Shown in pieces: positions 44,099 through 63,115 of a stretch of DNA of 64,000 bases. Origin of the DNA: Candidatus Mediterraneibacter merdipullorum (GTDB lineage Bacteria; Bacillota; Clostridia; Lachnospirales; Lachnospiraceae); the NCBI GenBank assembly GCA_019117125.1, contig DXAL01000021.1, forward strand, positions 62,001 through 126,000. Reading direction: 5' to 3'. Numbering within the stretch: the first letter of the stretch is position 1; each line of letters opens with the position of its first letter. The translations under genes and the position numbers were made by a program. Under the pieces are notes generated by a model, which saw nothing but the letters and a program-made list of their open reading frames with translations, was not told the origin of the DNA and did not search any database.

Positions 44099-44126
44099 AT
44101 GCATGTATGAAAGAGAGGTACTTTTC

Positions 44127-45539
44127 GTGATACATCTGTATCAGAACAACGGATATAATATCGTCCTTGACGTAAACAGCGGCGCCGTCCATGTGGTGGA
44201 CCAGGCAGCCTACGATGTCATCGGCGTCCTGGAGGAGCAGAACGACGCCCACACGCCGGAGACCCTGAGAGCGCCGGAAACCCTGGACGCTCTGTGCGTC
44301 CGGCTGGGAGACCGGTATCCGAAGGAGGATATCAGCGACATCCTGGATGCGGTGGTGACCCTGACAGAGGAGGGGCGGCTGTTCACCCGGGACATCTATG
44401 AAGACTATATCGATGCGGTGAAGCAGCGGAAGACGGTGGTAAAGGCGCTGTGCCTGCACATCGCCCACGACTGCAACCTTGCCTGCCGGTACTGCTTTGC
44501 GGAAGAAGGAGAATACCACGGGCGCCGGGCGCTCATGTCCTGTGAGGTGGGAAAGAAGGCGCTGGATTTCCTGATTGCGAACTCCGGGAAGCGGAGGAAC
44601 CTGGAAGTGGACTTCTTCGGCGGGGAGCCGCTGATGAACTGGGATGTGGTCAAGAAGCTCGTCGCTTACGGAAGAGAGCAGGAAAAGATTTATGACAAGC
44701 ATTTCCGCTTTACGCTCACGACCAACGGCGTGCTCTTGAACGACGAGGTCCAGGAGTTCGTGAACCGGGAGATGGACAACGTCGTCTTAAGCCTGGACGG
44801 CAGGAAGGAAGTCAACGACCGGATGCGTCCGTTCCGGAACGGGAAAGGAAGCTACGACCTCATCGTGCCCAAGTTCCAGAAGCTGGCAGAGAGCAGGCAT
44901 CAGCAGAAATACTACATACGGGGGACCTTTACGAGGGAGAACCTGGATTTCTCCAATGATGTCCTCCACTTTGCGGACCTGGGATTCGAGCAGATATCCA
45001 TCGAGCCGGTGGTCGGAGAGGACACGGACCCCTATGCCATACGAAAAGAAGACCTGCCGGTCATTTTTGAGGAATACGACAGGCTGGCAAAAATCATGGT
45101 GGAACGGGAGCGCGGAGGAAAGGGCTTTACCTTCTTCCACTTTATGATAGACCTGGAGGGCGGACCATGCGTCTCCAAGCGGCTTTCCGGATGCGGCTCG
45201 GGTACGGAGTACCTGGCGGTGACCCCGTGGGGAGACTTATATCCCTGCCATCAGTTCGTGGGGCAGGAGGAGTTCCTGATGGGCAATGTGGACGAGGGCA
45301 TCACGAAGCCGGAAATCGCGGATGCATTCCGCGGGTGCAGCGTCTACTCCAAAGAAAGCTGCAGGAAGTGCTTTGCAAGATTTTACTGCAGCGGCGGCTG
45401 CATGGCAAACTCCTACAAGTTCCACCACACCATAAACGACACCTACGAGGTGAGCTGTGAGATGGAGCGAAAGAGAGTGGAATGCGCCATCATGATAAAA
45501 GCCGCGCTGGCAGATGCAGAAGGGGCACAGGAAGCATAG
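44127..45539 (+). CDS. scfB: SCIFF radical SAM maturase (SPASM domain)
   Basis: 470 residues. An N-terminal peptide-binding RRE-like region (YNIVLDVNSGAVHVVDQAAYDVI) precedes the radical SAM motif CNLACRYC (Cys 116, 120, 123). The C-terminal SPASM part carries the cysteines for auxiliary clusters (CGSGTEYLAVTPWGDLYPCHQFVG, SCRKCFARFYCSGGC). It makes thioether links in the SCIFF peptide. I chose GTG at 44127, with AGAGGT 7 bases upstream and the family-like start MIHLYQNNGYNIVLD, over the ATG at 44103. Confidence 0.94.
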   Translation: MIHLYQNNGYNIVLDVNSGAVHVVDQAAYDVIGVLEEQNDAHTPETLRAPETLDALCVRLGDRYPKEDISDILDAVVTLTEEGRLFTRDIYEDYIDAVKQRKTVVKALCLHIAHDCNLACRYCFAEEGEYHGRRALMSCEVGKKALDFLIANSGKRRNLEVDFFGGEPLMNWDVVKKLVAYGREQEKIYDKHFRFTLTTNGVLLNDEVQEFVNREMDNVVLSLDGRKEVNDRMRPFRNGKGSYDLIVPKFQKLAESRHQQKYYIRGTFTRENLDFSNDVLHFADLGFEQISIEPVVGEDTDPYAIRKEDLPVIFEEYDRLAKIMVERERGGKGFTFFHFMIDLEGGPCVSKRLSGCGSGTEYLAVTPWGDLYPCHQFVGQEEFLMGNVDEGITKPEIADAFRGCSVYSKESCRKCFARFYCSGGCMANSYKFHHTINDTYEVSCEMERKRVECAIMIKAALADAEGAQEA

Positions 45540-49754: not shown

Positions 49755-51155
49755 ATGGATATTGCTGCCATCATCAGGCTCTGCCGCTATGGTCTGATCC
49801 TGCTGCCCGTCCTGCTTTTGTTTGCAGCGGCGGCGTTCTTTGTCCAGATTCCGAATCTGGGGAAAAAACGGACGGTCAGGGAGAGACTGCGCAATCTCAA
49901 AAAACACGGAAAAATGTGGGTCATGGTATGCGTTCTGTATGCCGCCTGCTTTGCCCTTGTCAGCATCCTGCAGGCGCGTGTGGAAAACGACATCACCATT
50001 GGTCTGAACTATGCCGGGGCGTCCGGCGGACTGACGCCGAACAATACCAGGTTCAACTCCTATGACATCATCGGCGACGAAGTGCTGGAGCAGGCGATCG
50101 AGGACGGGGGACTGGATGGGATTACGGCAAAGGAGCTGCAGGCAACGCTCTCTGTAGACCCGCTTCAGGCGGAGGATGACGATGAGGCGCTGGCGGAAGA
50201 ACAGTATTATATTTCTACCGAGTATGTGCTCCGCTATGAGGCGTCCTTAAAGACTCTGTTCCTGGATGGGAACCAGGTGGTCGAGAGTGTGGCGCAGGCA
50301 TTCGCCGGGCAGTTTTACGACCGGTATTCCAGAAAGACAGACGCCCTGGAACTGGATGAAGCGAAAGTGGATGAAGCGGATTATCTGGACAAAGTCAATA
50401 TCCTGGACCGGCAGATATCCGGCGTGCAGAATTTCCTGTGGAAATGCAGCGCGGAAGGCGAAAACTATGTGAGTGAAGACGGGGAGACCTTCGCCTCCCT
50501 TGCAAAAAAGATATCGGATTACCAGACGGTTGAACTGGAACGCATCAGAGCCTATATCCTGACAAAGGGACTGAGCAGCGATGAAGACCGGCAGCTGGCG
50601 AAGCTGGAGTACGAGAACCTCATCAAGGACCTGAACTATCAGAAGAATACAGCGGATTACGAAGTGCGTCTGGAAACGATTGAGATGTATGAGCGGGATA
50701 TGGCGACCATCGTGCTGGTCCCGACGACGGACGAGGAAGGCGAATTCTATATGAGCCGGACGAAGATCGCGGTGGATGATTTCGCAGACGAGGCGGATGT
50801 ATCCAGCCAGACTGCGGCGAAGACGCTCAATGAGATTGAGAATAACCGGTATGCCATAAGCCAGCTTGCGGGGACAGAGGCGTCGGAGACGGATTTTGAG
50901 ACGGCGGACGGCATGATCGCATCGTTTCAGGAGACCCTTTCCGGGTATGCGGACCAGGCGATGAAGATGGCGGTGGATTTCGACGCAAAGACGAAGGGAA
51001 ACTACATCGTCCTGACTTCGGACCAGGATAAATTTTTTAAAGGTCTTGTCCGGAGAGGGGGAATGCTGACAGGAGCGATGCTCTTTTCCACCGCGCTCGT
51101 CATCATGGCGTTCCCCGTGTCGAAAAAGAAAAGGACAGGGAGGGTTTCTGAATGA
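49755..51155 (+). CDS. Wzz-like polysaccharide co-polymerase, first of two
   Basis: 466 residues. Two N-terminal helices (about 13-30 and 54-74), an external helical domain of about 350 residues and a C-terminal helix (about 435-455). Just after the second helix comes ITIGLNYAGASGGLTPNNTRFN, which resembles the start of the external domain in chain-length determinants (Wzz). Such proteins set polymer length for Wzy. It has one more N-terminal helix than classical Wzz. No tyrosine kinase gene or domain follows. SD AAGGGGAGAG. It overlaps the next gene by 4 bases. Confidence 0.6.
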   Translation: MDIAAIIRLCRYGLILLPVLLLFAAAAFFVQIPNLGKKRTVRERLRNLKKHGKMWVMVCVLYAACFALVSILQARVENDITIGLNYAGASGGLTPNNTRFNSYDIIGDEVLEQAIEDGGLDGITAKELQATLSVDPLQAEDDDEALAEEQYYISTEYVLRYEASLKTLFLDGNQVVESVAQAFAGQFYDRYSRKTDALELDEAKVDEADYLDKVNILDRQISGVQNFLWKCSAEGENYVSEDGETFASLAKKISDYQTVELERIRAYILTKGLSSDEDRQLAKLEYENLIKDLNYQKNTADYEVRLETIEMYERDMATIVLVPTTDEEGEFYMSRTKIAVDDFADEADVSSQTAAKTLNEIENNRYAISQLAGTEASETDFETADGMIASFQETLSGYADQAMKMAVDFDAKTKGNYIVLTSDQDKFFKGLVRRGGMLTGAMLFSTALVIMAFPVSKKKRTGRVSE

Positions 51156-53233
51156 AGAAGTTCAGTCCGCTGGCGCTGATAAAAAAATACCGGCTGTTCA
51201 TCCTGGCGGCGGCAGTGCTCTCAGGTCTTGGCGCCATGTTCCTCTTTACGTGGATGCAGAGCTATACTGCCACAACGGTGATAGAGTATACCAATGACAC
51301 GGCGGAGCAGGGGCTCGCCCCTGACGGGACGGAGATCGACACGTCGGAAATCTATTCTGCGGATGTGATGAAAGAGGTCTTCACAAGGATGGACCTGGAT
51401 TACGACGATTACAATATGGATGAGTTCCGCTCCAAAGTCGAGATTGTCCCGCTCCAGACAAGCGAGGAGGAAGCGGTCCAGGAGGCGATGAACGAGGAAG
51501 GCGAGGAAGTGGAGGAAGAACCGGTCAGATACCAGGTGTCCATCACCCTTTCCAGAAATGACGCGTCGGACCCGGGGACATTTTCCCGTCAGCTCCTGGA
51601 CAACATGCTGGATGTGTTCCTGGAAAAATACGGGGAGACGCATGTCAACGGGACATCCTTTGTCAATCAGATATCGGAGATAAATACGGCGGACCACGAT
51701 TATCTCGAAATCATCGAGCTCATCGAGACATCGGTGAGCACAACGGTGGAATCGCTGGCAGGTTATGTTGAGAACAACGTGGACTTCACTTCCTCTGCGA
51801 ACGGATATTCCTTCAACGACATCTACCGGGACCTGGGGCTGTTCCAGTCCAACGAGATTCCGGATATCTACGCGTACATCCTGAACAACCGCATCACGAA
51901 AGACCCGGATATCCTGGTCTCAAAATACAGAAACCGGATAGAAGAGTACGGGATAAACAACAGCAGTTATGAGGAACAGATTGACGACATCCTGGAAATC
52001 ATCGACGCATATGTAAAGATGATGCGGGAGTCCGGGAATACGGACATTACCTATGAATACATCCTGGACCAGGTGTACGACGACTATTACTATGAGCAGC
52101 AGGCAGCCGCCCAGGCAGGCGCTCAGTCGGAGTCAGAGGACGGGAGCGCGCAGGACCTCCCGGACTGGCAGGCGCCGGACGAGACGGTCCAGTATGACGT
52201 GCTCCTGGAAAATTATGTGTCCAACCGGTCTGCCTGTGAGTACGCGCTGATCGATTCTGCCTACTGCCAGTATATCCTGGATTTGTACGGCGATGCCGGG
52301 AGCGCCTCCGCAGAGGAGGAACAGCAGCACGTCTCCCGGATGCTGGATGAGCTGGTGGGAGAGCTGAATGTGGTCTATGGCAGGCTGGATGAGATAAGCA
52401 GTGAATTTAACGAATACGCGGGAGCGATGAATGTGACTCTGAACAGCGACATCATCGTAAAGCCCAATATACAGATTCTGCTCTACTCCATGCTTGTTGT
52501 CGTTGTGTTTGCCATGGCTGCCGTCGCAGCAGTGCTTGTGGCAGGCAGAACCGGCGATATTCTGGATTACTACATGTATACGGACAGAAAGCTGCTGCTC
52601 CCGAACAGGACGGCATGCGACCGGTATCTGAACCGGAATGAAAAAGCCATGCTGGACAATGACTTTGTCTGTATCGCGCTGCTCTTTACCGGGCTGTCGG
52701 AGAAGAACCGGCAGTTCGGAAGGGAGAGATGCGACGCGATGCTCGTCCGGTTTGCAGGATTTCTGAAACAGATATTCCTGTCTTCCGGCGGGAATATGAC
52801 GGCGGTCAACGGATTCGGACAGTTCGTGGTCTTCCTGGACAAGGTGACAGAGGAGCAGGCACAAGCCTATCTGGAATATCTGGCGGATGAGGCGGAAGAG
52901 TATAACAAGTCTGAGAAATGCAGGATGGAATACCGCAGCGGCATCGCCCACGCAAAGACCGAACACATCTTCCGGCTACGGGACCTGATGGTGCGCGCCA
53001 TCCATAAGGCGGGCGGCAGCCAGAAGAAAGACACGCCTCCGGAAGCAGAAGCCGTCCGGGAGCCTGTGCAGGCGCCTGTTCAGGAATCTGTGCAGGAGCC
53101 CGTCCGGGAGCCTGCCAGGGAGTCCGTTCAGCAATCCGCGCAGGAGCCCGTCCGGGAATCCGGCGGGGGCGACCGCACAGACGAGCGGCTCACAGAGCTG
53201 CTCCGGCGGCTGGAAGAGATGCGGCGCGGATAG
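51152..53233 (+). CDS. Wzz-like co-polymerase fused to a degenerate GGDEF-like domain
   Basis: 693 residues. N-terminal helix (about 14-33), then TATTVIEYTNDTAEQGLAPDG as in Wzz-type proteins, an external domain to about 435, a second helix (about 440-470) and a cytosolic domain. That domain looks like a GGDEF remnant: LLLPNRTACDRYL near residue 480 resembles the LTGLPNR start, and VNGFGQFVVFLD near 550 stands where GGDEFVVLL would be, without the catalytic residues. A tail of PVQE/PVRE repeats ends the chain. The cytosolic part could bind a nucleotide such as c-di-GMP and control polymer length; this is inference. Confidence 0.6.
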   Translation: MKKFSPLALIKKYRLFILAAAVLSGLGAMFLFTWMQSYTATTVIEYTNDTAEQGLAPDGTEIDTSEIYSADVMKEVFTRMDLDYDDYNMDEFRSKVEIVPLQTSEEEAVQEAMNEEGEEVEEEPVRYQVSITLSRNDASDPGTFSRQLLDNMLDVFLEKYGETHVNGTSFVNQISEINTADHDYLEIIELIETSVSTTVESLAGYVENNVDFTSSANGYSFNDIYRDLGLFQSNEIPDIYAYILNNRITKDPDILVSKYRNRIEEYGINNSSYEEQIDDILEIIDAYVKMMRESGNTDITYEYILDQVYDDYYYEQQAAAQAGAQSESEDGSAQDLPDWQAPDETVQYDVLLENYVSNRSACEYALIDSAYCQYILDLYGDAGSASAEEEQQHVSRMLDELVGELNVVYGRLDEISSEFNEYAGAMNVTLNSDIIVKPNIQILLYSMLVVVVFAMAAVAAVLVAGRTGDILDYYMYTDRKLLLPNRTACDRYLNRNEKAMLDNDFVCIALLFTGLSEKNRQFGRERCDAMLVRFAGFLKQIFLSSGGNMTAVNGFGQFVVFLDKVTEEQAQAYLEYLADEAEEYNKSEKCRMEYRSGIAHAKTEHIFRLRDLMVRAIHKAGGSQKKDTPPEAEAVREPVQAPVQESVQEPVREPARESVQQSAQEPVRESGGGDRTDERLTELLRRLEEMRRG
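53060..53163 (+). repeat. Degenerate 12-base repeats coding (P/S)V(Q/R)E
   Basis: Imperfect units such as GAGCCTGTGCAG and GAGCCCGTCCGG give a Pro/Val/Gln/Glu tail (EPVQAPVQESVQEPVREP...). It lies at the cytosolic C-terminus of the Wzz/GGDEF-like protein. Confidence 0.75.
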
Positions 53234-53257: not shown

Positions 53258-54538
53258 GTGAAGCATGCAAAAAAAATCCTGCTGGCGGCGGTATATCTCG
53301 CACTGGCTGTACCGATGTTCTATTTTACAGAGGAAGGGGTCGCCGTCGGCAGCTTCAGTTTCATGTATATGTACCTTTTCGGCATCGGCATCGTGGCGTT
53401 CGCTGTGCTCGTGTTCTTTGTCTCACCGGATATCAGGCGGGGGATACTGAGCGTGCGGTACATGACGGTCATGTCCTTCCCGTATCTCTGGACAATCCTG
53501 TACTCCCTTCTGTTCTGGATTCTTACCCTGGCGGAATTCCGGGTCATCACGAGAGGGTTTTTCTATGTCGTATATCAGCTCATCGCGGTGTCGGCAGCGG
53601 CGGCGACGCTGTACCTGTTCGGAAACAACGGGATATATTATCAGTTCTTCGCTCTTGCGGCGGCGAACGCCATTGTCATCGTCCAGACCGTCCGCCAGTT
53701 CGGAGCCGGGGAGTTTGTGTCCGAATATATCGATGTCATCACGTCGTTTACTTCGGAGACCGGCGTTATCATGAAGCTGTTTGAATCCATGGAGCACGGG
53801 TTTGCCATCGGGTTTTTCCTGATTTTCTTTCTGCTGGATTTCCGGAAAAACAAAAAGAGGCTGTTCTGGCTCCCGCTGGCGGTGTTCCTCTTCCTGCTGG
53901 GGCTCAAGAGAATCATCCTGGCGGCGGCAGCGGCAGGCATCCTGCTGGGGGTCTTCGGGATGCGCTTCCTGAAAAAGAATGCGAAGCGGAACATCCTCAT
54001 CCTCCTGACCGGGGTGGGCATCCTGGGATTTGCCTATATCGTCGCCGTGCGCATGGGGCTTTATGAGTGGCTGGAGGCCAGAGGAATGGACAGCATGGGA
54101 AGGCGCTGGATTTACGACATGGTCCGCGACTGGTACGAGATCGGTCCCGGATATTTCGGGAAAGGCGCAGGCTATATATCCGGTTCCATCTCCATCGGGG
54201 AGCTGGACCTGACCCGCTCTGACGGATATGCGGTGGCGGACATCCACAATGACCTGCTGCGCCAGTACATTGAGCTGGGGTTCCTGGGATATTTCATCTG
54301 GACCTGGCTGTTTTTAAACCGCCGCGCGGGATATTTCTTCCACGCGCAGGCGACGGAAGACGACAGGCGGCACGGCATACTTGCCGCGGCTGTACTTGCC
54401 GCGCTGTTTTTTACGTTTATGACGGACAACACCATCTATTACTATTATACGACGATTTTTTCGTCCATCGCTATCATGGGGTTCCGGTATGAGGAATATG
54501 CGGAACAGGTAAAACTGCCGGGGGATGACGGTTCGTGA
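53258..54538 (+). CDS. Wzy/O-antigen-ligase-like polymerase
   Basis: 426 residues, about ten membrane segments, with a large loop before the last segments containing DSMGRRWIYDMVRDW, GPGYFGKGAGYISG and VADIHNDLLRQYIELGFLGYFIWTWL. The HND...E.G.LG pattern is typical of the Wzy/WaaL ligase superfamily. It would join lipid-linked repeat units outside the membrane. GTG start at 53258 with GGGGGGA 7 bases upstream. It overlaps the following glycosyltransferase gene. Confidence 0.78.
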   Translation: MKHAKKILLAAVYLALAVPMFYFTEEGVAVGSFSFMYMYLFGIGIVAFAVLVFFVSPDIRRGILSVRYMTVMSFPYLWTILYSLLFWILTLAEFRVITRGFFYVVYQLIAVSAAAATLYLFGNNGIYYQFFALAAANAIVIVQTVRQFGAGEFVSEYIDVITSFTSETGVIMKLFESMEHGFAIGFFLIFFLLDFRKNKKRLFWLPLAVFLFLLGLKRIILAAAAAGILLGVFGMRFLKKNAKRNILILLTGVGILGFAYIVAVRMGLYEWLEARGMDSMGRRWIYDMVRDWYEIGPGYFGKGAGYISGSISIGELDLTRSDGYAVADIHNDLLRQYIELGFLGYFIWTWLFLNRRAGYFFHAQATEDDRRHGILAAAVLAALFFTFMTDNTIYYYYTTIFSSIAIMGFRYEEYAEQVKLPGDDGS

Positions 54539-55665
54539 GGATAGGTATCTTTTTTCACAGATTTGACGACGGGGGCGCGGAGAAGACTACCGTGCGCCTG
54601 GCAAATGAACTGGCAAAGCGCGGTCATGCGGTCACCATTGCCGTACGGTACGACAGAGGACCCGCAAGGGCGCTTGTCAGCAGTGCGGTCCGGGTCGTGG
54701 ACATGAAGCTCCCGGAAAAGGGGAAGCTGGTGAAAAATATCCGGAATGTCCGCATCCTGAAAGGGATGATGGGTTCCGGGGACTATGACGTACTGATGGC
54801 GGTCACTTCGGAGATGGCGGAGGTCGCCGCTGTTTCCTGCGCCTTTGGCGGGAAGAAAATTCCGCTCGTCTGTGTGCTCCACAGCACGCTGTCCGTGGAG
54901 CAGACAAGCTTCCGTGCGCTCCGGCACATGCTGCACGGGTTTTTCGACCGGCAGTACGACCGGGTCATCGCCGTATCGGAAGCCGTGCGGCTGGATTATC
55001 TGAAAAGCTGCGGGGCAGAACCGGGCAAAGCGGTGACCATCTATAATCCCCTGGTGGATGAGCGGGTGATGCGTCTTTCCGGAATCCGTCCGGACCATCC
55101 GTGGCTTGTACCGGACCGGACATTCCGGACGCTTTTGATGGTGGGAAGGCTGTCTTACCCCAAGAACCATGCACTCATGTTCCGGGTGCTGAAAAAGCTG
55201 CTCCGGGAAGGGGATTACCGGCTGGTCCTGCTGGGGGAAGGGGAGCTTCGCGAAGAGCTGGAGACGCTGGCAGAGGACATGGGCATCCGGGCGCAGGTGG
55301 ATTTTGCAGGCTATACGGACAACCCCTTCGGTTATATGGCGTACTGCGACTGTCTGGTCCTCTCTTCCCACTATGAAGGACTTCCGTCGGTCCTTGTGGA
55401 AGGGCTTGCCTGCGCAGGCACCATCGTGAGCGTCGACTGCCCTTCCGGTCCCGCAGAGATACTGGAAGGGGACACATACGGCGTGCTCGTCAAAAGCGGG
55501 GATGAAAAGGCGCTGAAAGAGGGAATCCTGGAAGCGCTCCAAAGGAGGACGGACCCGGAGCTGCTGCGAAGGCGGTCGGAAGATTTCTCGGTCAGCGGTT
55601 CCGTGGACCGGTATGAGTCGGTACTTTTGCAGACTGTGGAGGATTTCAGGAAAGGGCGGACATGA
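54535..55665 (+). CDS. GT4-family glycosyltransferase
   Basis: 376 residues with two Rossmann-like halves: FHRFDDGGAEKTTVRLANELAKRGH at the start, VGRLSYPKNHALMFRVLKKL in the middle and SSHYEGLPSVLVEGLACAGTIVS near the end, the GT4 retaining pattern (E...E). Transfers a sugar from a nucleotide donor to a lipid-linked acceptor on the cytosolic face. GTG start overlapping the polymerase stop. Confidence 0.9.
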   Translation: MRIGIFFHRFDDGGAEKTTVRLANELAKRGHAVTIAVRYDRGPARALVSSAVRVVDMKLPEKGKLVKNIRNVRILKGMMGSGDYDVLMAVTSEMAEVAAVSCAFGGKKIPLVCVLHSTLSVEQTSFRALRHMLHGFFDRQYDRVIAVSEAVRLDYLKSCGAEPGKAVTIYNPLVDERVMRLSGIRPDHPWLVPDRTFRTLLMVGRLSYPKNHALMFRVLKKLLREGDYRLVLLGEGELREELETLAEDMGIRAQVDFAGYTDNPFGYMAYCDCLVLSSHYEGLPSVLVEGLACAGTIVSVDCPSGPAEILEGDTYGVLVKSGDEKALKEGILEALQRRTDPELLRRRSEDFSVSGSVDRYESVLLQTVEDFRKGRT

Positions 55666-56867
55666 CAGAGCTTAAGATAAAACATATCATGGATAAATGC
55701 CGGTTCGCATGGTATCTCCTGCAGTATGCCGCAGCGTGCCTTGTGGCGCCGCTTTTCCGGCGCCGGAAAGAGTATGACCGGCTCTGGCTCATCGCGGAGC
55801 GGGGCGTGGATGCAGGGGACAACGGGTATCATCTGTTCCGGTATATCCGCACCCGTCATCCGGAAATCAATATCCGGTATGTCATCTCGGACGATTCTCC
55901 GGACCGGGCAAAAGTAAGCGCCCTTGGGGAGACGGTCTCCTACAGGAGCTTCCGGCACATGCTGGCATTCGTACTGTCCGGAGTCAAGATAAGCACCCAT
56001 GTCATGGGATATTCTCATGACGCTTATTTCTTCAAAATGCTGGACGGGAAGCTTCGGATAAAGGGAAAGAAAATTTTCCTGCAGCACGGCATCATCAAGG
56101 ACGACATCCCTTACCTCTATGCGGATTCCACCCGTCTGGATTTGTTTGTCTGCGGGGCGAAGCGGGAGTACGAATACATCCGCAGCACATACGGCTATCC
56201 GGAAGGGATTGTCCGCTTCCTGGGCCTGTGCCGCTATGACGCGCTGCCTGCCGGAAGGGAGCGAAAACAGAGCCGGACCGTCCTTGTCATGCCCACTTGG
56301 CGGACTTATCTGGAGCGGGTTTCAGGGCAGACCTTCTGCGGCACCGCATTTTACAGGGCGTACCAGAGCCTGCTCTCAAGTCCGCGGCTTCGGGAGATAC
56401 TGGAACAATATGGCTATCGCCTGGAATTTTTCCCCCATCATGAGATGCTGCCGTATCTGGACTGCTTCCGGACGGACGCCCGGCAGGTGCGCCTGTCCGG
56501 AAAAGGAGAAGAGGTGCAGCAGGCGCTCATCGGTGCGGACATCCTGATAACGGATTATTCGTCGGTGTATTTTGACTTCGGATATATGGGCAAGCCGGTC
56601 ATCTATTATCAGTTCGACCGGGAAGCGTACCGCGCGGGACACTATCAGGAAGGGTATTTTTCCTATGAAAGGGACGGGTTCGGTCCGGTGGTGGAGACGG
56701 AAGAGGAACTGCTTTCGGAGCTGGAAAAGGCTCTGGCGCGCGGCTGCATTTTGGAACCGGTCTATGAAGAGCGGGCGGAGCGCTTTTTTGAGCGGAGGGA
56801 CCGGAAGAACTGTGAGCGGAATTTTGACGCGATCATGCAGGCGGCAGGAGAGGAGAAGGACGGATGA
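55662..56867 (+). CDS. CDP-glycerol/polyol-phosphate glycerophosphotransferase (TagB/TagF type)
   Basis: 401 residues. Family motifs: FLQHGIIKDDIPYLY, a TWR motif, EFFPHHEMLPYL and the C-terminal ILITDYSSVYFDFGYMGKPVIYYQFDREAY. These enzymes move glycerol phosphate or ribitol phosphate from the CDP form onto a teichoic acid or capsular acceptor. At 401 residues it is a single catalytic unit like TagB, so it may add one or a few units and not a long chain. No gene for CDP-glycerol synthesis is in the window. ATGA overlaps on both sides. Confidence 0.9.
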   Translation: MTELKIKHIMDKCRFAWYLLQYAAACLVAPLFRRRKEYDRLWLIAERGVDAGDNGYHLFRYIRTRHPEINIRYVISDDSPDRAKVSALGETVSYRSFRHMLAFVLSGVKISTHVMGYSHDAYFFKMLDGKLRIKGKKIFLQHGIIKDDIPYLYADSTRLDLFVCGAKREYEYIRSTYGYPEGIVRFLGLCRYDALPAGRERKQSRTVLVMPTWRTYLERVSGQTFCGTAFYRAYQSLLSSPRLREILEQYGYRLEFFPHHEMLPYLDCFRTDARQVRLSGKGEEVQQALIGADILITDYSSVYFDFGYMGKPVIYYQFDREAYRAGHYQEGYFSYERDGFGPVVETEEELLSELEKALARGCILEPVYEERAERFFERRDRKNCERNFDAIMQAAGEEKDG

Positions 56868-57931
56868 GCAGGATTACCAGAAACACGATCGGAATGTTTG
56901 ACTGCCTGAAGGGCGCGGTCGTCCTGTTTGTCATCTTAAGCCACTGCTTCATCGAAGTATGGACCGTCAACCGGTGCACGGACTATACGCTTGTCTGGCG
57001 GTGCGTCCATTCGATGAGCGGGATGGCGATGGGAATCTTTTTCATCATCAGCGGCTACGGCTTCCGCCCGGTGAAAAACCTGCGGGGCGTCCGGATGCAG
57101 GCGCGCCTCCTGCTCCGGCCGGTTCTGACGGCGTATCTCTGCTTTACTCCCGCCATGATGCTCGGAAATCTGCTCACAGGCGAACCGGTTCTCTCCGGCA
57201 TCGCAGAGCGGTGGACCGGCTTTCTGCTGGGGCATATGAGGCGGACGGAAATGTTCGGGATGGAGACAGAGACTCTGGGCGTATTCTGGTACTTTATCGC
57301 ACTGTTCATCGGGTGGATGCTGCTGACGCTGATTTTCCGCATAGCGGAAAAAGAAGCGTTCCGGGGCGCGGCAGTGGCTGTATGTACTGCCGCAGGCTGC
57401 CTTCTGGCACGCTTCCTCCCGGAGCTGTGGTTCTGCATCGCCCAGGGACTGCTGTCCGTGGGCTTCCTCTACACCGGATATCTCCTGAAGAAGAAGGGAC
57501 TGGCATTCGCGAAAATACCGGTGTGGGGATACGTCCTCCTGGTGGGAGCGGCGGCATCGGTGCTGGCGTTTGGATATGTGAACCTGGGCGTCAATGAACT
57601 CAGGCTTGGACTGCTGGACTATGGGGGGACGGTATGCGGGAGCGTCCTGCTTATCCGCCTCTATCTCCGGTTCTTTGACCCGGAGCGGAAAGTGTATGCG
57701 CCCCTGATGTTTCTCGGCAGGAACTCGTCCATGTTCATCTGCATCCATGGATTTGAAGCGCTGCTCATTCTCTGGCGGTCCTGCCCGTATCTGATTTCCG
57801 GTCATGTGCAGCTGACGGCATTTGCCTTTTTCGCTTTCCGGCTTGGGCTGATTACGGTCTTATATTATATTGCCATGTACAGCAGGATGTTATGGCATCG
57901 GATGAGAACAGGGAGGGACGATGTATCATGA
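56864..57931 (+). CDS. Acyltransferase 3 family membrane protein
   Basis: 355 residues, about ten membrane segments. The AT3 start is clear: LKGAVVLFVILSHCFIEVW with the conserved His at residue 27, and FFIISGYGF after it. AT3 proteins carry acyl groups across the membrane and attach them to sugars or polymers. The next genes encode an SGNH hydrolase and an acyl carrier protein, so this may be the transfer step of a dedicated acylation route. ATGA overlaps on both sides. Confidence 0.85.
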   Translation: MSRITRNTIGMFDCLKGAVVLFVILSHCFIEVWTVNRCTDYTLVWRCVHSMSGMAMGIFFIISGYGFRPVKNLRGVRMQARLLLRPVLTAYLCFTPAMMLGNLLTGEPVLSGIAERWTGFLLGHMRRTEMFGMETETLGVFWYFIALFIGWMLLTLIFRIAEKEAFRGAAVAVCTAAGCLLARFLPELWFCIAQGLLSVGFLYTGYLLKKKGLAFAKIPVWGYVLLVGAAASVLAFGYVNLGVNELRLGLLDYGGTVCGSVLLIRLYLRFFDPERKVYAPLMFLGRNSSMFICIHGFEALLILWRSCPYLISGHVQLTAFAFFAFRLGLITVLYYIAMYSRMLWHRMRTGRDDVS

Positions 57932-58761
57932 AGCGTTTTTTTGCGGTCCTCGCCGCCGTGCTCGGGGTGCTGGTCATCGGCTGCGCCGCAGTCTTACTCG
58001 TATCAGAGATATTCTACCCGGGGCGGGGGTCGGAGGCGGTCCGTCCGGGCGGAGAAAAGGGACAGGATGACCCGGCAAAGGGCAAAGAGGAGGATGGAAG
58101 GTATTTCTCCGTCCTGGGAGACAGTGTCAGCGCCTACCGCGGGTGTGTGTCCCGGGAACTGACGCCCTACTATTCTTCCGGTGATTTCAGCGTTGAGTCG
58201 ATGTGGTGGTCTGTCCTTGGGGAAGAGACCGGGATGGAGCCGTGCGTCATCAATGCCGGCTCGGGGACGGGCGTGACCGAGCTGTTTCCGGACGAGGGGT
58301 TCCCGACAGCCGGGAACAGTGAGCGGTGTGAACAGCTCCATACGGAAGAACACACGCCGGATGTCATCTTCGTCCTGCTGGGAGGAAACGATGCGATACA
58401 GCAGGTTCCCGGAAGTGAGCTGGAAGACGCCTATGTGGAGATGCTGGAGCGGATGCAGCAGGCATATCCGGATGCGGAAATCTATGCCTGCACCTATTAT
58501 CTCATGCCCGGTTTCCTCACAGAGCCGATCCGGGATTTGAATGAACGGATACGAAGGGCTGCTTCTGAGGCGGATGTTCCGTGCATCGATGTGGAAGGGT
58601 GCGCCGTCTCAACGGGAGACCCGGAGGAGTATCTGCTGGATTATGACGCAGCGTCGGACTTCGGCGTCCATGTAAACGAGAAAGGGCAGAGAGTGCTGGG
58701 AGAGGCTGTGGCAGACGGGATGAAAGAATCGGGGAAAGCCCCCGGGATTCAGACAGAATGA
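57928..58761 (+). CDS. Membrane-anchored SGNH/GDSL hydrolase
   Basis: 277 residues. N-terminal hydrophobic helix with a possible lipobox (VIGC, Cys19), so the catalytic part is outside. SGNH blocks: SVLGDSVSAY with Ser66, a Gly in INAGSG, LGGNDA with Asn154, and SDFGVHVN with Asp244 and His248. Such proteins are esterases or, next to AT3 proteins, acyl transferases acting on surface glycans. It could complete or reverse the modification made by the AT3 protein encoded just before. SD GGGAGGG lies inside that gene. Confidence 0.85.
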   Translation: MKRFFAVLAAVLGVLVIGCAAVLLVSEIFYPGRGSEAVRPGGEKGQDDPAKGKEEDGRYFSVLGDSVSAYRGCVSRELTPYYSSGDFSVESMWWSVLGEETGMEPCVINAGSGTGVTELFPDEGFPTAGNSERCEQLHTEEHTPDVIFVLLGGNDAIQQVPGSELEDAYVEMLERMQQAYPDAEIYACTYYLMPGFLTEPIRDLNERIRRAASEADVPCIDVEGCAVSTGDPEEYLLDYDAASDFGVHVNEKGQRVLGEAVADGMKESGKAPGIQTE

Positions 58762-58784
58762 GAAAAAGCAGGAGGAGAGAAACG

Positions 58785-59018
58785 ATGAAAAAAGAAGAAC
58801 TGATGGAACAGATGATACAGCTGGTGCGGGAGAACACGGACGCGGCAGATATCAGCGGGGCGAGTTCTTTTATGGATGACCTGGAGATGTCTTCCATGGA
58901 GATATTTGCCTTCACAGGGGACCTGGAGGCGGAGCTTGGCATCCGCATTCCGGAGCGCGTGTTAAACAAAGCGGCAACACTGGATGAACTGGCGGATGAG
59001 ATACTGAAATTACTTTAG
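58785..59018 (+). CDS. Acyl carrier protein of the envelope cluster
   Basis: 77 residues, the helical carrier fold (FMDDLEMSSMEIFAFTGDLEAELGIRIPE). Ser37 in SSM is at the phosphopantetheine site; the usual DSL is replaced by SSM. It is not in a fatty acid synthesis locus; with the AMP-ligase at 60573-62048, the AT3 protein and the SGNH hydrolase it resembles the logic of DltA/DltC-type surface acylation. Start 58785 has AGGAGGAGAG upstream. Confidence 0.85.
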   Translation: MKKEELMEQMIQLVRENTDAADISGASSFMDDLEMSSMEIFAFTGDLEAELGIRIPERVLNKAATLDELADEILKLL

Positions 59019-59025
59019 GAGCGTT

Positions 59026-60576
59026 ATGAGGACCCGAAATTCTTTGATTAATCTGCTCGCCTCCGTGGGGGCGCAGGGCGTGAACATCCTGCTCCAGTTT
59101 CTGTCCCGGTTCATCTTTGTCCGCTATTTCTCCGAGGAATATCTCGGGGTAAACGGGCTTTTTACAGAAGTCCTGACGATATTTTCCCTGGCGGAGCTTG
59201 GAATCGGGATTTCCATGATGTACGGGCTTTATGACGTTATCGCGAAAAAGGATGAGCAGGCGGTGGCCTGTCTGATGAACCTGTACAGGCGGATGTATGC
59301 GGCGGTGGGCGCGGCAGTGGCAGGGATCGGATGCGCGCTGCTTCCCTTTCTGGATGTCTTTGTCAAAAGTACGGAAATCCCGCATATCCGGCTCATCTAT
59401 CTGATGTATCTGGCAAATTCGGTGCTCAGTTACTTCTTTGCGTACAAGCAGACGCTGCTGCGGGCGGACCAGAAAGAATACATTGTATCCGGTGTCACCC
59501 AGCTTGTGAAGTGCGTCCAGGTGCTGTTCCAGATCGGGATTATCCTTGTCACGGAAAATTTCTACCTGTACCTGGGAGCCCAGATGGTCTGCCAGATACT
59601 GACGAATGTGCTGCTCGCCGCTGTGGCGGACCGGAAATACCCGTATATCCGGAACCGGAGCGCAGGGCTTCCGGACAGAGCGGTGCGAAAGGATTTGTAC
59701 CGTCACATCCGCGCGATGGCGTTCCACCGGTTCGGCTCGGTGTTTGTGTTCAATACGGACAACCTGCTTATCTCCATGTTCATCGGGCTTGGTACGGTGG
59801 GGCTCTATTCCAATTATAAGCTGGTCACGAACAACCTCCGGACCGTCGCGGATTATATCTACAATGCGCTGACCGCAGGCGTGGGGAATCTGGCGGTCAC
59901 GGAGCCGGCGGAGCGGACCCTCTCGGTCTATCATACGCTGCAGATGGGGATGTCCCTTCTGTTCGGCTGGATGGCGGTATGCCTGCTGACACTGTTCAAT
60001 CCCTTTATCGAGCTTTTCTTCGGTGGGAAGTACCTGCTCCCTTTTTCGACCGTGGCGGTCATTGTGCTGGATTTTTATATCCTGGAAATGCGTCAGGTCA
60101 CGCTCTGCTTCCGCAACGCCATGGGGCTTTTCTGGTATGACAGGTACAAACCGGTGTTTGAAGTGGCGCTCAACCTGGGTCTGTCCCTGTTCCTCGTACA
60201 GAGGTACGGGATAGCGGGCGTCATCCTGGGGACGGTCATCAGCTCTCTGGCAACGAATTTCTGGGTGGAGCCTCTGGTGTTTTTCCGGTACGGGATACAG
60301 AAAGACTGGAAGAGAAACCTGGCGGGATACTTCCGGCGCTATGGGTGCTATACGGCGTTCACGGCGGTATGCGCCGTGCTCTGCCTGTATGTGTGCGGCC
60401 GGTTCGGCGAGGTGACGGTCCTTACCTTCCTGCTCAGGGGAGCGGCGGTATGTGTGATATACGCTCTGCTCGCCTTTGCCGTATTTGGCAGGAGCACTGA
60501 GTGGAAGGAACTTGCCGGGAAAGTGTCAGGGCTGGTAAAATACAGGAAAAAAGCGGAAGGAGAACAGGAGAAATGA
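59026..60576 (+). CDS. Wzx-like polysaccharide flippase
   Basis: 516 residues, about fourteen membrane segments, MOP superfamily polysaccharide type: FIFVRYFSEEYLGVNGLFTEVLTIFSLAELGIG near the start is the Firmicute RfbX/Wzx pattern, with FNTDNLLISMFIGLGTVGLYSNY in the middle. Flips lipid-linked repeat units to the outside, where the Wzy-like protein would polymerise them. TTAGGAG precedes the ATG, 7 bases after the acyl carrier gene. Confidence 0.87.
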   Translation: MRTRNSLINLLASVGAQGVNILLQFLSRFIFVRYFSEEYLGVNGLFTEVLTIFSLAELGIGISMMYGLYDVIAKKDEQAVACLMNLYRRMYAAVGAAVAGIGCALLPFLDVFVKSTEIPHIRLIYLMYLANSVLSYFFAYKQTLLRADQKEYIVSGVTQLVKCVQVLFQIGIILVTENFYLYLGAQMVCQILTNVLLAAVADRKYPYIRNRSAGLPDRAVRKDLYRHIRAMAFHRFGSVFVFNTDNLLISMFIGLGTVGLYSNYKLVTNNLRTVADYIYNALTAGVGNLAVTEPAERTLSVYHTLQMGMSLLFGWMAVCLLTLFNPFIELFFGGKYLLPFSTVAVIVLDFYILEMRQVTLCFRNAMGLFWYDRYKPVFEVALNLGLSLFLVQRYGIAGVILGTVISSLATNFWVEPLVFFRYGIQKDWKRNLAGYFRRYGCYTAFTAVCAVLCLYVCGRFGEVTVLTFLLRGAAVCVIYALLAFAVFGRSTEWKELAGKVSGLVKYRKKAEGEQEK

Positions 60577-62048
60577 CATTTTACAGCTTTATGAAACAGA
60601 TGTATGACGCAAGACCGGAGCATGTCCTGTTTTCATATGACCGTGACGGGATACAGACAAACGTCACGGTGAGGCAATGGGTGCAGGATGTGGCGGACTG
60701 TGCGGAATATATGGCGGCACAATACGGGAGAAACGGCAGGACCCACATCGCCGTGACCGGAAAGAGCAGTTATGAATGGTATGTGCTGGTGTTTGGCATC
60801 GTCCTCTCCGGAAATGTGGCTGTGTCGGTCAATACCGGTCTTGCGGAGGAGGACCTTTTGTATCAGCTCCGGAAATCGGATGCGGTCATCCTTTACCGGG
60901 AGCAGGAAGAGCGGGATTTTGAGGAACTGAAGAAAGCGCTCATTCCCCAGGAAGGGATGGACGACGTCCGGAAAAAGGCGGCGGAAAGAAGAAATGGCAG
61001 GCTGTTTCAGGAAGAGATGCTCCAGAAAGAGATGCTTCAGGAAGAATGGTCTCCGGATGACGGCGCTTCGGAGGACCGGATGTCCCTCATCCTGTTTTCT
61101 TCCGGGACGAGCGGGCTTCCCAAGGGTGTGATGCTGAGCCAAAAAAATATCCTTGCAGTGGACGATAAGATGGAGGGTGTCTTTGACGGAGGGCGTCTGA
61201 TGATGATGCTTCCTCTCCACCATGTCGCTGCCATCTACTTCAGCATCGCTCTGATGCGGCATCCGGTCACCTTGTGCATCTGCAGCAGTCCCAAATACAT
61301 GGTGCGGGATATGAAGCGGTACCGCCCCACCGTGATGACGATGGTGCCAGCCCAGCTCGCCTTCCTCGTGTCGAGGTGCACAAGGGACGAGCTGCTCAGG
61401 GAGACGGCAGCGCAGTATCTGGACTATGTGGTCTGCGGCGGCGCCATGCTGGACAATGAGTATCCGGACCTTTTTGCAGACTGGGGCATCCAGGTGCTGA
61501 ACGCCTACGGGCTCACCGAGACGTCCGGCGGGATTACCCGGTGGTTCCCCCACCGGGAACGCTCCATCGGTATGCTCTCGGACGCCAACGAGATGAAGCT
61601 GGAGGAAGGAGAGCTGCTGATAAGAGGCGGCAGCGTCATGCTGGGGTATTACAAAGACCCGGCGGAGACGGAAAAGGTATTCCGGGACGGCTGGTTCTGC
61701 ACCGGAGACCTGGTGCAGACGGATGAAGACGGCTTCCTGTATGTGACCGGGAGAAAGAAAAATATCATCATCCTTTCCAACGGGGAAAATGTAAGCCCGG
61801 AGGAACTGGAGGGCAAGATATGCCGGATACCCGGAGCGGAGGAAGTCGTGGTGACGGGAAGCGGGGAAGGACTGACGGCATCCATATATCCGGGCGAAGA
61901 GCAGGATGAGGGGAAGAGGCGCCGGATACAGGAAGGAATCCGAGCGCTGAATGAACGCCTGCCCAGATTCCAGCAGATACGGGAGGTCCGGTTCCGGGAA
62001 GAGCCCTTCCCGAAGACGGGGAGCGGAAAGATAAGGAGGAATCTCTGA
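60573..62048 (+). CDS. AMP-forming acyl (or aminoacyl) ligase of the ANL superfamily
   Basis: 491 residues. ATP-binding loop LFSSGTSGLPKG (about 174-185), substrate-pocket and adenylation motifs NAYGLTETSGG, WFCTGDLVQ, VTGRKKNIIILSNGENVSPEE, and the C-terminal lysine in KTGSGKIRRN (Lys486). It should activate an acid and load it onto the cluster's acyl carrier protein. The substrate cannot be read; the family spans acyl-CoA synthetases and DltA-like enzymes. An insertion at about 146-158 repeats EEMLQKEMLQEE. Overlaps its neighbours at both ends. Confidence 0.88.
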   Translation: MTFYSFMKQMYDARPEHVLFSYDRDGIQTNVTVRQWVQDVADCAEYMAAQYGRNGRTHIAVTGKSSYEWYVLVFGIVLSGNVAVSVNTGLAEEDLLYQLRKSDAVILYREQEERDFEELKKALIPQEGMDDVRKKAAERRNGRLFQEEMLQKEMLQEEWSPDDGASEDRMSLILFSSGTSGLPKGVMLSQKNILAVDDKMEGVFDGGRLMMMLPLHHVAAIYFSIALMRHPVTLCICSSPKYMVRDMKRYRPTVMTMVPAQLAFLVSRCTRDELLRETAAQYLDYVVCGGAMLDNEYPDLFADWGIQVLNAYGLTETSGGITRWFPHRERSIGMLSDANEMKLEEGELLIRGGSVMLGYYKDPAETEKVFRDGWFCTGDLVQTDEDGFLYVTGRKKNIIILSNGENVSPEELEGKICRIPGAEEVVVTGSGEGLTASIYPGEEQDEGKRRRIQEGIRALNERLPRFQQIREVRFREEPFPKTGSGKIRRNL

Positions 62049-63115
62049 TGGCTCAGGTGTCCGTCGTCCTGCCGGTCTTCAATATCCGGGAGGACATCCT
62101 GCACCAGTGCATGGAGTCCGTCCTGAATCAGACTTACACGGATTATGAAGTCATCCTGGTGGACGACGGCTCGGACAACGGAGCGGAAATGATATGCGAC
62201 GGGTACGCGAAGCGGGATGAGCGCTTCCGTGTAATTCATCAGGAGAACCGCGGCGTGTCTGCCGCAAGGAATGCCGGGACGGCTACGGCGAAAGGAAAAT
62301 GGCTCATCTATCTGGACCCGGATGACTGGTGGGAGGCGGATACGCTGGAAGTGCTCTGCCGCTGTATGGAGGAACAGGAGCCGGACGTCCTCATCTTTTC
62401 TTATTTTGACAATTTCCCGGACCGGCAGGTGGAGCGCAGATGCGGGAAAGACCCTGTTTCAGGCTATACGGAAGCGGACGGCGCCCTGCGGCACAATATG
62501 CAGCTCGGGCTCCTGGATGAGAGCGTCCGGATGCTCCCGGGCTACTTCGGCGCCGTGTGGCTGCAGATGATAAACCTTGAGTTCCTGCGGAGACAGCATC
62601 TGCTGTTCCCGGAAGAGATACGGAAATCGGAGGATACCGTCTTCAATCTGCGGCTGCTGGATGCCGCCGCCAGGGTCGGGATACTGGACCGGTCCCTGTA
62701 TCATTACCGGAGGTATGAAGATTCCCTCTGCAACCGGTACAGTCCGGACCTGGAACAGACCTTTGCCCCGGTGGGAAAGGAACTGTACCGCTTCTGTTCC
62801 GGAAGGTCGGAGGAATATATGCAGGCATACCGTGTCTTCCTGGTGAAGAATTATGCCGCGCTCCTGCGGCTGAACTATTTCCATCCCGATAATCCGGATA
62901 CGGAGCGGGAAAAGCGGAGGCAGTGGAACGCCTTTCTCCGTACAAAGGATGGATTCATCGGGGTGGAAAAGACCGGGACAGGCATGCTGTACCGCAGGCG
63001 GAAGATGACGGCGGTCCTGTATTTCGTGTCCTTCCGGCTCAAAAGCTACGGGCTTTTGAAACTGTTCTGGAAGCTGTTCTCCATGGGGAAGGAAGGGCAT
63101 GCCCCGGATTTATAA
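62048..63115 (+). CDS. GT2-family glycosyltransferase
   Basis: 355 residues. GT-A fold with VSVVLPVFNIREDILHQCMESVLNQTY, VILVDDGSDNG, NRGVSAARNAG and the metal-binding DPDDWW. Inverting sugar transfer, or in some teichoic acid systems polyol-phosphate transfer, to the growing repeat unit. Its start shares one base with the ligase stop. The 3' end overlaps the convergent epimerase by 6 bases. Last gene of the plus-strand run. Confidence 0.9.
   Translation: MAQVSVVLPVFNIREDILHQCMESVLNQTYTDYEVILVDDGSDNGAEMICDGYAKRDERFRVIHQENRGVSAARNAGTATAKGKWLIYLDPDDWWEADTLEVLCRCMEEQEPDVLIFSYFDNFPDRQVERRCGKDPVSGYTEADGALRHNMQLGLLDESVRMLPGYFGAVWLQMINLEFLRRQHLLFPEEIRKSEDTVFNLRLLDAAARVGILDRSLYHYRRYEDSLCNRYSPDLEQTFAPVGKELYRFCSGRSEEYMQAYRVFLVKNYAALLRLNYFHPDNPDTEREKRRQWNAFLRTKDGFIGVEKTGTGMLYRRRKMTAVLYFVSFRLKSYGLLKLFWKLFSMGKEGHAPDL

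Follow-up and report, generated by a model that had tools for sequence, protein, structure and literature searches.

By what route is the acylation of a surface sugar fuelled when the membrane acyltransferase lies beside a carrier protein and a loading enzyme of its own? The question is raised by a run of genes in a stretch of 64,000 nucleotides from Candidatus Mediterraneibacter merdipullorum (contig DXAL01000021.1), which we refer to as the window. In many bacteria the acylation of surface sugars is the work of AT3 proteins, and an AT3 protein placed next to its own carrier and loading enzyme suggests that this reaction may be fuelled in a second way. For the studied AT3 proteins, the donor is described as acetyl-CoA or another acyl-CoA (PMC9558356, PMC12148441).

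Gene layout and protein families in the window

A preliminary description of this DNA placed an AT3 protein, an SGNH hydrolase, an acyl carrier protein (ACP), and an AMP-forming ligase here, and all four are present, closely packed on the forward strand within a glycan cluster (Table 1). Its account of the neighbors held for the TagB/F-type protein and the glycosyltransferases; the proposed Wzy protein matches nothing in Pfam or NCBIfam, and the proposed Wzx protein has only a weak match in NCBIfam. The Wzx-like gene stands among the module genes, which lie between glycosyltransferases, and genes for a UDP-GlcNAc 2-epimerase, a WecG/TagA protein, and an initiating sugar transferase are found downstream. 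Profile scanning of ten proteins from the run gave no MBOAT match; the PF01757 protein stands in that place.

Table 1. Features of the run and the basis of their assignment (positions in the window)
Feature	Positions	Strand	Basis
Wzy-like membrane protein	53258..54538	+	Position and hydrophobicity only; no Pfam or NCBIfam match
GT4 glycosyltransferase	54535..55665	+	PF00534, 105 bits
TagB/F-type glycerophosphotransferase family protein	55662..56867	+	PF04464, 123.5 bits
AT3 membrane acyltransferase, ACP-linked subfamily	56864..57931	+	PF01757, 27.9 bits; subfamily matches; AlphaFold model
AT3 residues 66-76, presumed cytoplasmic TM2-TM3 loop, candidate ACP docking site	57059..57091	+	Basic in subfamily
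AT3 residues 79-82 (QARL), position of RxxR in ordinary AT3 proteins	57098..57109	+	Motif comparison
SGNH protein, presumed N-terminal anchor helix	57928..58761	+	PF13472, 2.7e-20; ATGA overlap with AT3 stop
ACP, 77 residues	58785..59018	+	PF00550, 31.6 bits; AGGAGG upstream of ATG
Serine 37 of ACP, predicted phosphopantetheine attachment site	58893..58895	+	Alignment
Wzx-like flippase, within the same run	59026..60576	+	NCBIfam WZX_like, 28.9 bits (cut-off 300); no Pfam match
FadD-like AMP-forming acyl ligase, proposed ACP loader	60573..62048	+	PF00501, 177 bits
GT2 glycosyltransferase	62048..63115	+	PF00535, 121.7 bits

The AT3 protein of the window matches PF01757 with an E-value of 1.6e-6, its score being under the family cut-off of 31. 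All 16 members of the AT3 subfamily alignment A4 match the same family (best E 4.6e-23), and the AT3 portion of the protein encoded at locus L132 scores 57.1 bits, over the cut-off. The AlphaFold model (pLDDT 90.9) has 8vly, 8jkv, and 8jl4 as its best three PDB matches, with probabilities of 0.99-1.00 but E-values of only 0.035-0.067 and TM-scores of 0.44-0.48. The first is HGSNAT, as is 8jkv (PMC12423673), and 8jl4 is titled only 'membrane proteins'; a TmAT fold is possible. The K/R-x10-H motif in TM1 is represented by K16 and H27, and across the subfamily the histidine is found in 38/38 members, as is Lys or Arg at position 16.

The 77-residue carrier with SSM at its attachment site is borne out as described: its ATG at 58785 lies behind AGGAGG, and the serine is within DLEMSSMEIF. 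S37 is invariant in an alignment of nine ACPs and is also retained in the 33 module ACPs listed, and an AcpS gene is present in the genome. The ligase has FadD13 (3r44) as its nearest solved relative and a core reading PLHH, of acyl type. Histidine occupies the core in 40/40 aligned AT3-linked ligases, and the two DltA-type ligases of the genome have Phe then Asp there, a difference that we take to separate acyl-type from amino-acid-type ligases. In the ligase tree the AT3-linked enzymes are separated from the DltA-type with support of 100. A decoration with "an acyl or aminoacyl group" had been suggested; because of the acyl-type core and the separate clade, its aminoacyl half is not supported.

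The SGNH gene start is best placed where it overlaps the AT3 stop codon. The protein has one N-terminal helix (residues 2-29), presumably a membrane anchor, followed by the SGNH domain. The domain itself had been correctly recognized, and calling its blocks complete was slightly too strong because in block V (DFGVH) the Asp precedes the His by four residues, not three. The block II glycine is retained in the alignment, so the transferase-type replacement by Ser or Asn, as in PatB and OatA of S. pneumoniae (PMC12148441), is not seen here. OatA, PatB, AlgX, and DltD are absent among the 50 fold matches listed for this protein. It does not look DltD-like and is probably an accessory protein, either an esterase or an acyltransferase.

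Recurrence of the AT3-ACP-ligase module

Relatives were sought with the AT3 protein instead of the ligase because ligase similarity also retrieves another module: 40 of 150 genomes of the family match the ligase, but 23 of the ligases in the tree are assigned to that module, which combines an a/b hydrolase, a condensation domain, an ACP, and a ligase. Among 32 distinct non-seed loci selected by AT3 similarity alone, the fetched stretch contains an ACP in 29, a ligase in 29, and both in 27; neither an ACP nor a ligase occurs at any of 20 ordinary AT3 loci, and weaker AT3 relatives have the pair in 1/9. When the loci are split into groups at 60% AT3 identity, 19/24 seed-free groups have both partners. 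Two of the loci, L162 and L165, are closely related to the seed L073. Both partners lie within 2 kb of the AT3 gene at only 20/32 loci, the farthest ligase being 8.2 kb away, and the order of the module genes varies among the 36 module loci. The five of 32 loci missing a partner are L121 and L148 (no ligase), L149 and L125 (no ACP; the contig of L125 ends 50 bases after the ligase), and L124 (neither). Good AT3 matches short of the full set also include L130 and L167, with neither partner, and L237, with a ligase but no ACP.

At L132, in one genome, AT3 and ligase are fused in a single protein of 1191 residues. The three proteins have also diverged in parallel, AT3 distances being correlated with those of the ligase (r = 0.78) and of the ACP (r = 0.82) across 26 loci (permutation p = 0.0001). 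AT3, ACP, and FadD-like ligase thus form a recurring module. Many unrelated genes do accumulate in glycan clusters, which is the one consideration in favor of chance neighbors in a glycan island; that reading is contradicted by the 27/32 against 0/20, together with the fusion and the correlated divergence, and is hardly credible. As to spread beyond the family, AT3 matches at E 1e-25 occur in 2/398 genomes of the phylum, the window's own and that holding L167; at class level, 4/391 genomes match at E 1e-30, again including the window's own. The genera with the module include Faecalibacterium, Butyrivibrio, and Pseudobutyrivibrio, which are common in gut and rumen.

Co-occurrence of all four families in relatives, proposed earlier as a check, was observed for AT3, ACP, and ligase only. 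With a profile of 16 SGNH proteins, SGNH was found at 2/36 module loci, the window and L142, both of which are included in the profile. The profile replaced a pattern search because the latter missed the window protein (with its DxxxH block) and that of L142, and flagged the control locus L212, which Pfam did not confirm. An exported a/b hydrolase considered as a constant stand-in for SGNH is not general; it lies within 1.3 kb of AT3 at L124, L127, and L128 and is also found at L062. A fourth match to the a/b hydrolase pattern, 6 kb away at L152, looks spurious.

Acyl donor, acceptor, and alternative readings

We judge it likely that the three proteins make up an acylation module in which the ligase loads the ACP, acyl-ACP replaces acyl-CoA at the AT3 protein, and the acyl group is moved out onto a glycan. 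Using ATP, the ligase would activate a carboxylic acid other than an amino acid and attach it to the phosphopantetheine arm of the module's own ACP. Acyl-ACP would dock at the basic TM2-TM3 loop of AT3, and the acyl thioester would enter the membrane channel from the ACP in place of acyl-CoA, after which AT3 would carry the acyl group outward and esterify the glycan. In the window the acceptor would most likely be the polymer belonging to the Wzx/Wzy-type cluster around the module, which contains the TagB/F protein, and the SGNH protein on the outer face may complete the transfer or trim the ester.

The bearing of the AT3 sequence on the donor lies in TM3 and the loop before it. Both basic positions of RxxR are present in 0/38 members of the ACP-linked subfamily as against 13/20 controls, in a count that ignores kinship. 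Since 7/20 controls also are without it, RxxR characterizes the studied AT3 proteins but not all members of the family. In simulations of OafB, the CoA 3'-phosphate is placed on R74 of this motif, among other residues (PMC9833829; see also PMC12423673). The mean net charge of the TM2-TM3 loop, kinship again being ignored, is +3.8 in the 38 subfamily members as compared to +1.1 in the 20 controls and +1.1 in nine weaker relatives. Loss of the TMH9 Tyr was rejected as a mark of ACP use because relatives that are not ACP-linked show it too (2/9 keep the Tyr), and it is uninformative on the donor. That this AT3 branch is fed by the dedicated ACP instead of acyl-CoA, with the changes in TM3 and the basic charge of the loop as a docking adaptation, seems to us reasonably probable. 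A precedent is provided by Rhodobacteria, in which a ligase-ACP pair gives acyl-ACP to a serine palmitoyltransferase also able to use palmitoyl-CoA (PMC9386255). For AT3 proteins, acyl-CoA was favored over ACP as the donor in a 2022 review (PMC9558356).

The AT3 protein could instead take ordinary acyl-CoA, with ligase and ACP serving a second, cytoplasmic acyltransferase, so that two acylations would fall on one product. The AT3 donors described as demonstrated in vitro are acyl-CoAs (PMC9558356), a condensation-domain protein (PF00668, L044) accompanies ligase-ACP pairs in a different Lachnospiraceae module, and a protein bearing an HLLSDG/HFLTDG-type motif adjoins the module at L142, L143, and, by profile, L145. 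However, by profile this last protein is found at only 3/36 module loci and a condensation profile built from five seeds matches at 0/36, these being the two families profiled; the AT3-ligase fusion and the altered RxxR positions in 38/38 members also speak against this reading, which we consider unlikely. It is quite unlikely that the acyl group goes to a lipid or to a small molecule that is secreted, the glycan setting of the module being coincidental or secondary. Such a role is suggested by the 14/36 module loci at which the fetched stretch has no glycosyltransferase or Wzx match, by ABC-transporter genes beside the module at L119 and, judged by matching gene sizes, at L148, L159, and L163, and by the AT3 enzymes of antibiotic pathways, which act on small molecules (PMC9558356). 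Against it stand the other 22/36 loci, which do have such matches (6/20 in controls), and the interleaving seen in the window, and the home-made glycosyltransferase profiles may overlook distant members. Because of the 14 loci, a glycan acceptor is not general.

The preliminary description had proposed a Dlt-like system for acylation or aminoacylation, with AT3 for DltB and SGNH for DltD. The logic is indeed equal, with a ligase, a carrier, a membrane acyltransferase, and an outer SGNH protein, but the ligase evidence given above (core histidine, tree) does not fit. The DltD-like place for SGNH also falls away, given its rarity among the module loci, its retained glycine, and its listed fold matches. 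The genome holds two Dlt-type operons elsewhere, so the module is not a replacement for a missing Dlt pathway. Taken together, these points make an aminoacylation system very unlikely, and we retain acylation from a dedicated ACP as the preferred reading.

Relation to known systems

The earlier statement that no named system with this gene set is known agrees with the literature searched, in which the abstract openings listed gave no description of one. The nearest relatives by AT3 domain and by K/R-x10-H in TM1 are the AT3 and AT3-SGNH O-acyltransferases of PF01757 (OatA, OafA, OafB); in the window, too, an SGNH protein follows, as a separate polypeptide. Unlike these, the module has a dedicated ACP and ligase adjoining and is without RxxR, and an SGNH partner is not conserved with the module AT3. 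The Dlt system (DltA, DltB, DltC, DltD) shares a carrier protein with its own ligase, the predicted loader in the module, and a membrane protein that moves the acyl group outward; it differs in using an MBOAT protein (DltB) and an amino-acid-type ligase (DltA), and the module has no conserved SGNH partner. MBOAT-SGNH systems (PatA/PatB, AlgIJFX, WssHIFG) likewise transfer acyl groups through the membrane onto a polymer and include an SGNH protein, but are described with an MBOAT protein, an acyl-CoA donor, and no carrier protein (PMC12148441). In AasR-AcpR-SPT of Rhodobacteria, an enzyme fed by acyl-CoA in other settings comes with a dedicated ACP and an ACP-loading ligase (PMC9386255); there the enzyme is a serine palmitoyltransferase, the product is a lipid, and no transfer across a membrane takes place. 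Like the window, exosortase-A-associated EPS clusters (TIGR03098) have a FadD-like ligase in a polysaccharide cluster, and they may include an ACP. The window ligase scores 115 bits against TIGR03098 (cut-off 592), and we know of no report of an AT3 association in those clusters.

In summary, with a dedicated ACP and ligase, and one fusion to the latter, this AT3 branch makes the case for an ACP as donor testable with three genes. If true, it would be a further route for acyl groups across the membrane, beside the acyl-CoA-fed AT3 and MBOAT proteins and the Dlt system. By means of such a carrier the cell could reserve a chosen acid for its surface, sparing the shared CoA pool. With its occurrence in Faecalibacterium, Butyrivibrio, and Pseudobutyrivibrio, the module may set a surface modification that is met by hosts and phages.

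Co-occurrence of AT3, ACP and ligase genes

Sequence comparison establishes a recurring AT3-ACP-ligase module. A profile of five AT3 proteins matched 28 of 397 family genomes at E 1e-18, and its ten matches below 1e-40 outside the seeds (loci used to build search profiles) formed a first set. A second set came from scanning named genomes for the motif GMF[DN][LC][LT]KG, where 26 of 54 stretches encoded a confirmed AT3 relative, including those of Faecalibacterium prausnitzii, F. longum, F. hattorii, Butyrivibrio fibrisolvens 16/4 and several Pseudobutyrivibrio. ACP and ligase profiles, run on all reading frames of the fetched loci, found an ACP at eight, a ligase at eight and both at seven of the first ten loci, and 25, 24 and 23, respectively, of the second 26. 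Four second-set loci count as duplicates because their contigs match others in length (L151 of L121, L156 of L119, L157 and L166 of seeds), leaving 32 distinct non-seed loci, 29 with ACP, 29 with ligase and 27 with both. Both partners lie within 2 kb of AT3 at 20 of the 32; the farthest ligase is 8.2 kb off. L162 and L165 are near relatives of seed L073, and grouping at >60% AT3 identity gave 24 seed-free groups, 19 including a locus with both partners.

Among incomplete loci, L121 and L148 lack the ligase and L149 the ACP. No ACP was found in the fetched stretch of L125, whose 9032-base contig stops 50 bases past the ligase. The stretch of L124 has neither partner; another contig of its genome (L062) carries a ligase-ACP pair adjoining genes named by eye as sugar transferase and flippase-like.

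Neither ACP nor ligase was found at any of 20 ordinary PF01757 loci of the same family (fetched length 7.7-19.9 kb) or at the genome's own two other AT3 loci. Of sixteen profile rows weaker than 1e-40, nine are loci counted as weaker relatives and five were not included; the remaining two are a repeat match within L131 and the L132 fusion. One of the nine was positive, L131 (MBOAT, ligase and ACP). At this locus (L131:9242-19547), a glycan cluster, a single protein of 692 residues holds both AT3 stretches, and a ligase, a short MBOAT (61.7 bits) and an ACP follow at a distance of 6-9 kb. At a looser threshold L133 has a ligase-like frame cut at the stretch edge, about 8 kb from AT3. Three loci matching later AT3 profiles well count against the module reading: L130 and L167 with neither partner, and L237 with ligase only and no ACP.

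L132 (120-3695) is a single frame of 1191 residues that holds, in this order, AT3 (57.1 bits), a ligase-like region that Pfam does not match, and an AMP-binding domain (117.7 bits). Within 5.5 kb of AT3, the 36 module loci have sixteen gene-order patterns, incomplete ones counted, from AT3-ACP-ligase to ligase-ACP-AT3, and in the three from Faecalibacterium AT3 lies on one strand and its two partners on the other. Inter-locus distances, excluding four near-copies and loci lacking the full set, correlate for AT3-ligase (r 0.78), AT3-ACP (0.82) and ligase-ACP (0.80; permutation p 0.0001 each, 26 loci), and for pairs below 50% AT3 identity r was 0.70 (AT3-ligase) and 0.75 (AT3-ACP), all uncorrected for genome kinship. 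L060 and L146 carry additional ligase and ACP genes round a single AT3; an ABC transporter gene identified by Pfam lies upstream.

Glycan setting and the SGNH protein

Features of the window and Dlt-type operons of the genome
Feature	Position	Strand	Match or content
Radical SAM protein	44103-45539		weak SPASM match; resembles peptide maturases
Membrane protein, Wzz-like by eye	51152-53233		C-terminal GGDEF, 28.5 bits; signature motif apparently lost
TagB/F-type protein		+	Pfam 123.5 bits
AT3	56864-57931	+	PF01757 27.9 bits (Pfam cut-off 31)
SGNH protein		+	Pfam 2.7e-20
ACP	start 58785	+	Pfam 31.6 bits; AGGAGG upstream
Ligase		+	Pfam 177 bits
Dlt-type operon L084			ligase, ACP, MBOAT (54.3 bits), 354-residue protein in DltD position (no Pfam match)
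Dlt-type operon L085			ligase, ACP, MBOAT (44 bits); no DltD identified at locus

The window comprises contig bases 62001-126000 of a 2.3 Mb assembly. Its run reads TagB/F-type protein, AT3, SGNH, ACP, Wzx-like protein, ligase and GT2, with overlaps or gaps of at most 23 bases; AT3, SGNH and ligase each start in an ATGA overlap with the preceding stop. The setting is a glycan cluster because of the TagB/F, GT2 and Wzx-like neighbours and the UDP-GlcNAc 2-epimerase, GT4, WecG/TagA and initiating sugar transferase genes downstream on the opposite strand. The tight four-gene run of the preliminary description is borne out; its Wzx/Wzy naming fares less well, since profile search gave one weak match for the Wzx-like protein and none for the Wzy-like protein. 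Glycosyltransferase or Wzx matches occur at 22/36 module loci versus 6/20 controls. In L119, L148, L159 and L163 (Pseudobutyrivibrio/Butyrivibrio) the module has a similar place beside ABC-transporter genes (by Pfam in L119, by gene sizes elsewhere), with no glycan-gene matches in the fetched stretches. The L128 cluster encodes a protein similar to that at 51152-53233, with GGDEF (32 bits).

The preliminary description had grouped the SGNH hydrolase, in a DltD-like place, with AT3, carrier protein and ligase in one candidate acylation route; AT3, ACP and ligase do recur together, and SGNH drops out. We treat it as an accessory, a candidate transferase or esterase, because a profile built from 16 SGNH proteins detects such a protein at two of the 36 loci with the module (in the window and in L142, both themselves among the 16), its fold matches are mostly esterases and lipases, its block II glycine is retained and its block V reads DFGVH (DGxH in most relatives). 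In L142 it lies about 4.4 kb beyond AT3. In the model a single N-terminal helix stands apart from the SGNH domain, and the best PDB matches are uncharacterised GDSL lipases. Esterases, lipases and TesA make up most of the other matches among the 50 listed; two carry the title acyltransferase (8zbc, SsfX3), and OatA, PatB, AlgX and DltD are not among these 50.

Ligase, ACP and the Dlt operons

Among solved structures, the ligase is nearest to FadD13 and further acyl-CoA synthetases. The core was picked up by a pattern search in 32 of the 40 AT3-linked ligases and not in the other eight; by alignment the core position is His in all 40, and Phe then Asp in the genome's two DltA-type ligases. In a tree of 85 ligases the DltA type is set apart (support 100) and the AT3-linked label requires 5 changes versus 28.5 in shuffles; the window ligase has a long branch and unsure placement. 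The attachment serine is conserved in 33 module ACPs, and the genome encodes AcpS. A module standing in for a lost Dlt pathway is ruled out, since the genome has two Dlt-type operons.

A separate four-gene module, common in Lachnospiraceae (L035-L061, e.g. L044:9301-13419), encodes an a/b hydrolase (~315 residues), a stand-alone condensation domain (~467 residues; PF00668 as tested in L044), an ACP with an FTSFDFM-like site and a FadD-like ligase. Related proteins of ~400-420 residues adjoin the ACP-ligase pair at L142:12771-14042, L143:66-1271 and L145:4938-6164. They are perhaps condensation or PapA-like acyltransferases; those of L142 and L143 have an HLLSDG/HFLTDG-type motif and no such Pfam match.

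The AT3 branch and its acyl donor

The window AT3 belongs to a branch of the AT3 family, and PF01757 matched 16/16 members of its subfamily alignment (A4). Its model (38 aligned sequences; mean pLDDT 90.9, pTM 0.90) has as top three PDB matches 8vly (human HGSNAT), 8jkv (HGSNAT; PMC12423673) and 8jl4 (titled merely 'membrane proteins'), with probability 0.99-1.00, yet E 0.035-0.067. The TmAT superfamily, as described in PMC12423673, takes in both HGSNAT and AT3.

Acyl-CoA rather than ACP has been argued to be the AT3 donor (PMC9558356). In reported simulations of OafB, the CoA 3'-phosphate sits on R14, R74 of RxxR, K279 and R338 (PMC9833829), and the first RxxR arginine is described as kept in most of the superfamily (PMC12423673). 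The corresponding positions 79 and 82 are both basic in 0/38 branch members (32 non-seed, 6 seed or fusion) versus 13/20 controls (18 of 20 fetched loci, the other two having yielded no protein, and two own-genome AT3s), and in 0/9 weaker relatives. Position 79 is Gln in 28/38 of the branch, and basic in 17/20 controls and 5/9 weaker relatives. The TM2-TM3 loop has a mean net charge of +3.8 in the branch versus +1.1 in controls and +1.1 in weaker relatives, all samples related by descent. Such a basic loop would suit docking of an acidic ACP on AT3.

According to PMC12148441, Dlt uses a carrier protein that the other MBOAT/SGNH pathways described there lack. A tested precedent is reported in PMC9386255, where a ligase and an ACP accompanying serine palmitoyltransferase supply acyl-ACP; the logic would be the same here, with a ligase-ACP pair feeding acyl-ACP to its partner enzyme. 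The best reading of the module is a putative ACP-fed AT3 system.
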